A stretch of 64,000 bases of DNA from an uncultured Alphaproteobacteria bacterium (GTDB taxonomy: Bacteria > Pseudomonadota > Alphaproteobacteria > Rhodobacterales > Rhodobacteraceae). Below the pieces are notes generated by a model. The model was given only the letters and a program-made list of their open reading frames with translations, was not told the origin of the DNA and searched no databases. The position numbers and the translations under genes are program-made. This document shows, piece after piece, positions 49,725 to 52,027 of this stretch (position 1 is its first letter; every line of letters begins with the position of its first letter). The stretch is from NCBI GenBank assembly GCA_902574225.1, contig CACGMO010000004.1:1-64000 (forward strand), given 5' to 3'.

Positions 49725-50657
49725 TTAATTTTTCCTATCCACTAATAGGTGAAGAACAGCCATTCTCAAGGCAACTCCTATTTCTACCTGTTCTTGGATA
49801 ACGCTTCTATTTAGATCGTCAGCAATAATTCCATCAATTTCAACTCCTCTGTTCATGGGACCAGGATGCATAACAATTGCGTCAGTTTTTGCTAGCAAAA
49901 GTTTCTGATTATCAAGACCAAAGCGATTAAAATACTCGCGCCTTGATGGAATAAAACCACCCTTCATTCGTTCTTTTTGTAATCTGAGCATCATTATTAC
50001 GTCAGCATTTCTGACACCATCTTCCATACGATTATATATTTCTAGACCCATATCCTTAAATGAGTTTGGTAACAGGTTGCTAGGACCGATAAGTCGCACT
50101 TGGTTATTAAATTTACATAATAGGGCTATATTTGATCGAGCTACACGGCTATGGCTTATATCGCCACAAATAGCAATTATTAAGCCTTCTTTTTTTTTCT
50201 TTCTGTGCTTTATAGTCAAAAAATCTAGCAATGCTTGTGTTGGGTGCTCATGACTTCCATCTCCAGCATTAAGAACCGAGCAATTAACTTTTTCTGACAA
50301 GAGATTCACAGCACCTGAAGAAGAATGTCTTACGATAAGCAAATCGGGTCTCATTGCATTTAAAGTTAATGCAGTATCGATGAGTGTCTCTCCCTTTTGT
50401 ATAGAACTAGTTGCAATTCTTATGTCTTGAACTATACCACCCAATTTTTTTCCAGCTAATTCAAAGCTCGCTAGCGTCCTAGTAGAGTTTTCAAAAAAAA
50501 CATTAATTTGAGTAAAAGATTGTAGATGATGTTTTTGCTCAACTTTATTCTTATTTTTCTGAAGGTAATATTCAGCAAGAGCAAAGATCTCTTCGATGTC
50601 ACTTCTGCTTAGATCATCTATTTGAATTAAATGCTTTGTCTGCAAAAATCTTTCCAC
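49725..50657 (-). CDS. pyrB: aspartate carbamoyltransferase catalytic chain
   Basis: 310 residues; condenses carbamoyl phosphate and aspartate in pyrimidine synthesis. Carbamoyl-phosphate loop [38 protein letters not shown], and [12 protein letters not shown] are all present. GTG start at 50657, no closer ATG. Followed immediately by the PyrC'-like gene. Confidence 0.95.
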
Positions 50658-50733: not shown

Positions 50734-51507
50734 ATGAGAAGTGATTTTGAACAACTTTTATGGTTATACTCAATGGGTGTTGAGGATGTTGCAACCCGTA
50801 AGCCACAAAATCATTTCAATGTTCAACTCGAGAAGAAAATTTACGATTCGGCTTATCAAGATCGTCCCTTATTAAAAAAAAATGAAGAAAATGGGGTTTC
50901 AGACAGAGAAAGCTTTTTAAATGAAGTTTACAAAAAAGATATTAACGCAATTGAGAGTGTTGGCTCTTTGGAGGCATATTGGCGAGATTCTTTGATAGAT
51001 AACTTCAATATCAAGAAATTCTGGGGATACAATAAACTAAAACAGATAAATAAGCTAAATATCTTGATTATTCATGAACCCCCTAGTAGAAGCGATTTTG
51101 CTCAGTATCGTTTCCTTGATGGCAAAAAGAGGAATTTAATCAACAATATTATATTCAGTATTTTATCGGGAGAGAGCAAAAGAGAAGTGCAAAATATTTT
51201 TGTTCCTATATTACCAATTCCCTTAAACGAGGCGATAGAATTCAAAAATCTTCAATCTTTTCATTTACTGTTCTTGCAGAGGTTAAATCATATAATAAAA
51301 TCTTCCCTGACTATTCTAATTGGTGACAAAGCAAATTCTCTTATATCAGAGGGTTTGGGAGCAAATGAGGATGAAGATATGAAAGGAAATCAGTATTTTT
51401 CAATTCCTGAGCTCGAGTATATGATGAGTGTTCCGGAAGTAAAAAAAACTGTTTGGGAAGAATGGAAACAAAAAAGAAGGACGTTAAAGAATGAACTCTT
51501 CTTATAA
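50734..51507 (+). CDS. degenerate uracil-DNA-glycosylase-like protein without Fe-S cysteines
   Basis: 257 residues. The opening LLWLYSMGVEDVATRKPQN and the order of later blocks (LNILIIHEPPSRSD in the GEAPG position, YRFLDGKKRNLINNI in the G-PFVG position, LTILIGDKA, then VPEVKKTVWEEWKQKR at the end) follow alphaproteobacterial family 4-type UDGs. The protein contains no cysteine at all, so it cannot bind the usual 4Fe-4S cluster, and the catalytic and HP motifs are eroded. Probably inactive as a glycosylase; the fold is inferred from weak motif order. Its 3' end overlaps moaB by 17 bp. Confidence 0.6.
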   Translation: MRSDFEQLLWLYSMGVEDVATRKPQNHFNVQLEKKIYDSAYQDRPLLKKNEENGVSDRESFLNEVYKKDINAIESVGSLEAYWRDSLIDNFNIKKFWGYNKLKQINKLNILIIHEPPSRSDFAQYRFLDGKKRNLINNIIFSILSGESKREVQNIFVPILPIPLNEAIEFKNLQSFHLLFLQRLNHIIKSSLTILIGDKANSLISEGLGANEDEDMKGNQYFSIPELEYMMSVPEVKKTVWEEWKQKRRTLKNELFL

Positions 51508-52027
51508 TATGTCTCGAGAATTTAAGTCTATAAATATAGCAATTCTCACCGTTTCAGATACTAGAACAAGCACAACAGATAAATCTGGCGCATTTTTATC
51601 CAATGCAGTAGTAGATGCTGGCCATAATGTGATACACAAGCTTATTGTTAGAGATGAAATTATTGACATAAAAAATGTTTTAATGTCTTGGAGTATGAGT
51701 TCAGATACTGATGTGATTATAAGCACAGGTGGAACAGGGCTGACCAAAAGAGATGTATCTGTTGAGGCTCACTCTCAAGTTTATGAAAAAGAGATAACAG
51801 CGTTTTCATCTATGTTTGCAGCAATCTCGATGGCAAAAATTGGGACATCAGCACTACAAAGCCGAGCATGTGCCGGAGTAAGGAATGGAACGTATCTATT
51901 CGCTTTACCAGGATCACCGTCAGCCTGTCGAGATGCTTGGGAAAATTTGCTTAAACCACAATTTGATTATAGACATTTACCTTGTAACTTTGTAGAGATA
52001 ATGCCTCGACTTATGAGTGAAAAATAA
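51491..52027 (+). CDS. moaB: molybdenum cofactor biosynthesis protein B
   Basis: 178 residues of MogA/MoaB fold; adenylylates molybdopterin. INIAILTVSDTRT, VIISTGGTGLTKRDVSVEA (the MPT-binding loop), and ALPGSPSACRDAW are diagnostic. ATG 51491 has AAGGA nearby and overlaps the upstream UDG-like gene; ATG 51509 is an alternative. Complements moaD/moaE elsewhere in the window. Confidence 0.93.
   Translation: MNSSYNMSREFKSINIAILTVSDTRTSTTDKSGAFLSNAVVDAGHNVIHKLIVRDEIIDIKNVLMSWSMSSDTDVIISTGGTGLTKRDVSVEAHSQVYEKEITAFSSMFAAISMAKIGTSALQSRACAGVRNGTYLFALPGSPSACRDAWENLLKPQFDYRHLPCNFVEIMPRLMSEK

Follow-up and report, generated by a model that had tools for sequence, protein, structure and literature searches.

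Family 4 uracil-DNA glycosylases (UDGs), also called UDGa and represented by Thermus 1UI0, Thermotoga TM0511 and Sulfolobus 4ZBX, are recognized by four cysteines of a [4Fe-4S] cluster and by a first motif of the form GE[GA]PG. According to one report, disruption of the cysteines lowers family 4 activity only partly (PMC5295032), and Fe-S-free UDGs may therefore be active. The same report remarks that Halobacteria possess an active family 4 enzyme together with inactivated homologues (PMC5295032). UDGX, which cross-links to the abasic site, provides a precedent for a change of chemistry in a relative of family 4. Its mutants N91A and H178A are inactive (PMC10776899). In titles and abstract openings of a full-text literature collection covering few subscription journals, no description of eroded UDGs linked to moaB was found.

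The window analyzed here, i.e., the whole stretch of 64,000 nucleotides, carries an open reading frame of this kind (Table 1), which starts with ATG, ends with TAA and encodes no cysteine. Dozens of related genera have apparently lost the same catalytic residues many separate times while retaining the gene.

Ancestry and orthology of the window gene

Table 1. Features of the pyrB/UDG/moaB locus in the window.
Feature	Coordinates	Strand	Description
Eroded family 4-type UDG orthologue	50734..51507	+	257 aa plus stop
pyrB	49725..50657	-	Divergent neighbour, 76 bp upstream of the UDG-like gene
moaB	51491..52027	+	First 17 bp shared with the 3' end of the UDG-like gene
N-terminal motif, residues 1-28	50734..50817	+	Counterpart of 'LLxWQxELGxxEAIxxxPVxRY' of relatives (alignments)
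Motif 1 remnant HEPPS, residues 114-118	51073..51087	+	Replaces GEAPG; E115 and P117 kept
Motif 3 remnant IFVPILPIP, residues 155-163	51196..51222	+	Replaces YITN-[IV][IL]PWRPP
C-terminal block, residues 222-257	51397..51504	+	Contains motif 2 remnant PELEYMMSVPEVKKTVW

Taken alone, the window protein matched no UDG in Pfam, NCBIfam or PDB sequence searches, and it had no match to TIGR00758 (UDG_fam4, cut-off 125.3 bits) up to E 10. Its UDG ancestry, as read from sequence comparisons, is transitive and passes through alphaproteobacterial relatives. The orthologue in another genome of the genus (L017, from G021) is 32% identical to the window protein over residues 48-254 (E 8.7e-27). It scores 24.4-25.3 bits against PF03167 (cut-off 24.3), which the window protein itself does not match, and 26.5 bits against TIGR00758. 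When the profile of the genus was compared with that of 30 alphaproteobacterial UDGs, the match had an E of 5.9e-6 (probability 85%), or 1.5e-4 (51%) once L017 was left out. Against alignment A3 of alphaproteobacterial members, which itself matches 1UI0 at E 3.2e-56, the profile-profile comparison gave E 1.6e-5 (79%). Among 394 genomes of the family, the genus profile matched only two outside the genus (G168 and G233), with one gene each, both of them UDG homologues adjoining moaB and pyrB.

The genomic context tells the same story. In 13 of 15 other Rhodobacteraceae genomes, a UDG match precedes moaB on the same strand at a distance of no more than 1.3 kb; for other families of the class, this arrangement was seen in 9 of 24 genomes, at distances of up to 2.2 kb. 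The complete pyrB/UDG/moaB order was also found in L065 and L066. Since gene order agrees with sequence, the window gene is orthologous to the moaB-linked UDG: it is a syntenic orthologue and direct descendant of a moaB-linked, Fe-S-free, family 4-type alphaproteobacterial UDG. An earlier note on this DNA had proposed a family 4-type ancestry, and the L017 link, the profile-profile match and the synteny with moaB uphold it. The moaB gene of the window scores 208 bits against the curated TIGR02667 cut-off of 222.4, yet it matches the full profile.

The earlier note had also suggested structure prediction as a check, and its outcome was mixed. With alignment A2 (10 rows from the genus), the AlphaFold model had a pLDDT of 31.8. 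With alignment A4 (61 rows, including 51 UDG domains from viral contigs), it reached a pLDDT of 55.2 and a pTM of 0.57, and contained a four-stranded sheet. The best PDB match of the latter model is the family 4 UDG 4zbx (E 1.3e-4, TM 0.53 by target length, rmsd 5.5 Å); 49 of the 50 PDB matches listed are chains of the UDG superfamily, and three of the 657 matches reach an E of 0.001 or lower. The matches agree with a UDG fold, but the model is poor and serves only as a compatibility check, because UDGs were present in its alignment, in which MAFFT probably misplaced motif 3.

Active site, cysteines and selection in the genus

In the window protein, only E and P remain of family 4 motif 1. P158, which is invariant in alignment A1, stands opposite the catalytic Asn of YITN, and I162 opposite the Cys/Trp position of motif 3. 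When aligned with viral UDGs, MAFFT instead pairs the catalytic Asn with N154, a position occupied by N, Y or V among members of the genus; we doubt that N154 is the catalytic Asn because it is not conserved in the genus and because Asn to Pro is common elsewhere (9/35 Asn-less genera). The remnant PELEYMMSVPEVKKTVW stands where relatives have HPAYLLRxPxxKRxAW and lacks the conserved His, whose position aligns with Glu226, or with Ile224 on a reading that assumes a two-residue insertion, a length shared with L126; no His is conserved there in the genus. The uracil-stacking position aligns with Leu. The window protein has neither a GEQP motif nor a match to TIGR03914, as UDGX would. Since Asn and His are needed in UDGX (PMC10776899), uracil excision by the window protein is unlikely by homology. 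The catalytic Asn and His positions are lost, in line with the eroded active site described in the earlier note, but GEAPG, which the note took to be gone, survives in altered form.

The N-terminal motif preserves the spacing of L, W, G and P but not the R. Searches with this motif against the PDB, and against Pfam for four proteins, matched nothing known.

The earlier note stressed that all cluster cysteines are gone. We placed the four of them on 1UI0, where they correspond to profile columns 93, 96, 170 and 186 (0-based). The four-cysteine signature of family 4 is absent from the window protein and is incomplete in intact relatives too. The first and third cluster cysteines are missing in 30/30 alphaproteobacterial rows, which have Cys at the second position in 23 cases and at the fourth in 14. 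Across 246 genera of the family, column 93 is Cys in 1 and column 96 in 224; the third cysteine, at column 170, is missing in 246/246 (Trp in 238), and column 186 had no Cys among the 186 rows examined. Intact relatives already lack cysteines, and thus loss of the cluster preceded the erosion of the window gene. We therefore reject Fe-S loss as a novelty of this gene: the observation of zero cysteines was accurate, but cysteine loss is not special to this copy, and relatives with intact Fe-S motifs, which the earlier note had named as part of a case against its reading, are absent from both the 30 rows and the 246 genera. Within the genus, 2 of 17 orthologue rows carry one Cys each.

The gene was found in 17 of the 22 genomes of the genus, with internal stops in none of the 17 copies (four of these rows, from G014, G013, G005 and G021, are truncated where the contig ends). 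The other five genomes also have no moaB match, and pyrB and an HlyD-type neighbour gene were each found in one of the five, both as fragments; the region is therefore taken as unassembled there. Every orthologue row long enough to include the stop (15 rows) has the ATG of moaB ahead of it, with the same 17-bp overlap; the description of an intact gene packed with moaB is confirmed. In two genomes of the genus we also observed similar short ORFs on the minus strand (L059, 1723-2121, 3760-4101 and 4468-4872; L061, 1032-1418), which we take by eye to be recombinase-like.

Selection on the gene, which the earlier note had assumed, is supported by its dN/dS (Nei-Gojobori, 110 of 136 pairs, dS 0.1-1.5), whose median of 0.27 (range 0.15-0.40) indicates purifying selection. 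With 14-15 rows for each gene, the values are 0.273 for the UDG-like gene, 0.095 for moaB and 0.054 for pyrB, i.e., about three times that of moaB and five times that of pyrB. The three closest pairs involving the window (dS below 0.1) give 0.51-0.77. By region, pN/pS is 0.16 at residues 109-145 and 0.115 at residues 222-257, the lowest of the gene, and rises to 0.53 in the linker (27-75) and 0.76 at residues 201-221. Constraint on the gene is real, but uneven and weaker than on its neighbours.

Recurrent erosion across the family

Profile A3, built from 17 rows of which two are eroded (L065 and L066), found matches in 381 of 394 family genomes; each genus is represented once, and that of the window twice. 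We retrieved stretches from 255 genera (252 of the 381 and three weaker), covering nearly all of 150 listed matches, 80 of 91 mid-low genera and the low tail. Nine rows that were partial or another paralogue (L112, L115, L117, L119, L120, L122-L125) were excluded, which left 246. GE[AGS]PG, Asn and His are all kept in 200 genera, and the catalytic Asn and/or His is lost in 37 (both in 22, Asn only in 13, His only in 2); a further 9 changed motif 1 alone. Hence, erosion of the active site is not peculiar to the window copy. The proportion 37/246 is not a family-wide rate, as 129 of the 381 genera, mostly at about 374-394 bits, were left unsampled. Eroded copies are absent from the 143 rows that score above 393 bits. 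In 34/37 eroded and 160/200 intact rows, the fetched stretch includes a moaB gene on the same strand. No copy was found in 8 of 35 low-scoring genomes, with a profile that also misses the gene of the window. One genome, G098, has two strong A3 matches (G098:C5:1668-2441 and G098:C10:29186-29968).

On a UDG tree (INDEPENDENCE; 204 rows, motif columns removed), parsimony requires a minimum of 15 changes for His and 18 for Asn, and an irreversible-loss count gives 17 and 19 clades, respectively. Shuffled labels need about 27 (His) and 37 (Asn) changes, so the losses are partly clustered on this tree. A moaB tree of 122 rows gives 18 changes for His and 22 for Asn. These are quick trees with long branches, whose change counts are rough and by themselves cannot separate gain from loss; all 13 outgroup rows from other families retain Asn and His. 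On the moaB tree, the genus of the window lies beside G135, G423 and G325, which all show some erosion, so that the genus may have its loss in common with them; similar base composition could also explain the grouping.

The losses have a pattern. Taking the columns conserved in at least 90% of intact rows, with the two selection columns left out, retention in the 22 rows lacking both Asn and His is 0.61 in 20 pocket columns and 0.81 in 65 others (one-sided Mann-Whitney p = 3.8e-4, a post hoc test, since the columns were chosen after the per-column table was seen). The seven conserved N-terminal columns have a mean retention of 0.94 in the same 22 genera. In these rows, twelve columns reach a retention of at least 95%; of the eight that can be checked in the window protein, seven are kept (L13, G20, P29, P123, P169, K250 and W254) and R32 is the exception. 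In the 46 non-intact rows, the second position of motif 1 remains acidic in 44 (Asp 26, Glu 18, Gly 2), its Pro is kept in 45, and the uracil-stacking position is Phe in 37 and Tyr in 3. The His was replaced in 24 rows, including Pro in 8, Ser in 8 and Ala in 3, and the Asn in 35, including Thr in 10, Pro in 9 and Ser in 7. Among replacements one base away, these residues are commoner than a simple codon expectation predicts (P = 7e-6 for His and 4e-7 for Asn; 2e-4 and 4e-4 with generous null rates), in tests whose rows are not independent. This looks like reshaping, not pure noise.

Could another enzyme have taken over uracil repair? The genome of the window encodes a family 1 Ung (G000:C23). 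Once three weak rows are removed from the list, Ung is present in 6/37 eroded and 84/209 Asn- and His-keeping genomes (Fisher p = 0.005, phylogeny ignored); it is rarer in eroded genomes, and we reject an Ung backup as the general cause of erosion. A general link with small genomes is likewise unsupported, since genomes of the 22 genera lacking both residues span about 1.9-4.9 Mb. When 40 genomes were scanned with PF03167, the eroded gene was the sole match in G333, G258, G380, G436 and G078, and G325 and G292 had no match. The genomes G292, G325, G333, G380 and G436 are 96-99% complete.

These observations matter for annotation. Of nine eroded proteins compared with TIGR00758, seven match it, one of them over the cut-off, and L121 and L126 do not. 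L065 (127.9 bits) and L134 (174 bits) exceed the cut-off despite the loss of Asn and His. Copies of this type would be named uracil-DNA glycosylase under the NCBI model TIGR00758, and genomes may be credited with uracil repair that is absent from them.

Possible roles and comparison with known systems

Repeated loss of catalysis in a repair enzyme whose gene is retained would make another function probable, masked by the repair annotation. We lean slightly towards a UDG-fold protein kept for a putative non-excision role, probably binding, and binding of DNA or a nucleotide is a plausible form of it. Besides the UDG core blocks and the N-terminal motif, the window protein keeps its C-terminal block as well as the acid and Pro of motif 1. 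It would act by binding, not cutting: the UDG fold could hold DNA, a flipped base or a nucleotide, and the N-terminal helix could dock onto a partner. The intact ancestor may already have had this second role, which would explain why lineages can drop catalysis yet retain the gene. The fuller version, in which a conserved second function relies on the N-terminal motif and the UDG fold and many genera gave up excision by convergent changes (E to D, N to T/P/S, H to P/S/A) and were left with a recurrently evolved pseudo-glycosylase dedicated to binding a base or nucleotide, is more tentative, and we hold it to be possible rather than probable. Eroded copies would then be natural catalytic-dead variants with which the second role could be found.

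A serious rival to the binding role is slow decay, which we consider rather unlikely: excision would be dispensable in many lineages, the genes would drift, and the ORFs would persist through slow loss and translational coupling with moaB. It accounts for a constraint weaker than that on moaB and pyrB, for the graded states (9 motif-1-only, 13 Asn-only, 2 His-only, 22 both) and for the 8/35 low-scoring genomes without a detected copy. It fits poorly with the 0/17 internal stops in the genus, with two blocks near the constraint of moaB (pN/pS 0.12-0.16), and with pocket columns lost preferentially, patterned replacements and a retained N-terminal motif. That pattern could also mean that the same convergent replacements reshape the pocket of a glycosylase re-tailored to another base. 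The acid of motif 1 and the stacking aromatic residue, mostly kept outside the genus of the window, are consistent with this, as is the statement, in PMC10776899, that no site is fully conserved across all UDG enzymes. Lineages differ in their replacements, however, with no single new set, and the window protein has Leu at the stacking position and Pro in place of Asn, which makes a re-tailored glycosylase distinctly improbable. Finally, the ORF could be no more than a leader whose translation couples ribosomes to moaB and whose protein has no role. The overlap with moaB in all 15 rows that reach the stop would suit such a leader, but blocks of conserved amino acids lie far from the overlap and the spacing varies elsewhere (moaB starts within 100 bases in 56/111 intact and 15/19 both-lost rows measured), so that we give this explanation very little credit.

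The favoured reading, a retained UDG fold with a probable binding role, can be set against known systems. The window protein has the block order of family 4 UDG (UDGa) and, to the extent that the model shows it, the same fold; it differs by the missing Fe-S cysteines and catalytic Asn and His, an altered motif 1, and an extra N-terminal motif and linker. With the intact moaB-linked UDGs (e.g., L024) it has in common the locus, the N-terminal motif, the core columns and the incomplete Fe-S ligands, but these keep GE[AGS]PG, Asn and HP. The eroded UDGs L065, L113, L118 and L126 share the locus, the loss of Asn and His and the open frame, and several share the change of N to P; eroded UDGs of other genera are mostly less diverged than the window protein, and L121 and L126 likewise lack a TIGR00758 match. 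UDGX keeps GEQP, Asn, HP and the cross-linking His (PMC10776899), and the window protein has none of these. The halobacterial homologues, as presented in PMC5295032, resemble the window gene in that activity is inferred to be lost and the gene kept. However, those inactivated genes are extra copies next to an active one, whereas the window gene is a fixed-locus orthologue whose catalytic residues were lost in parallel.
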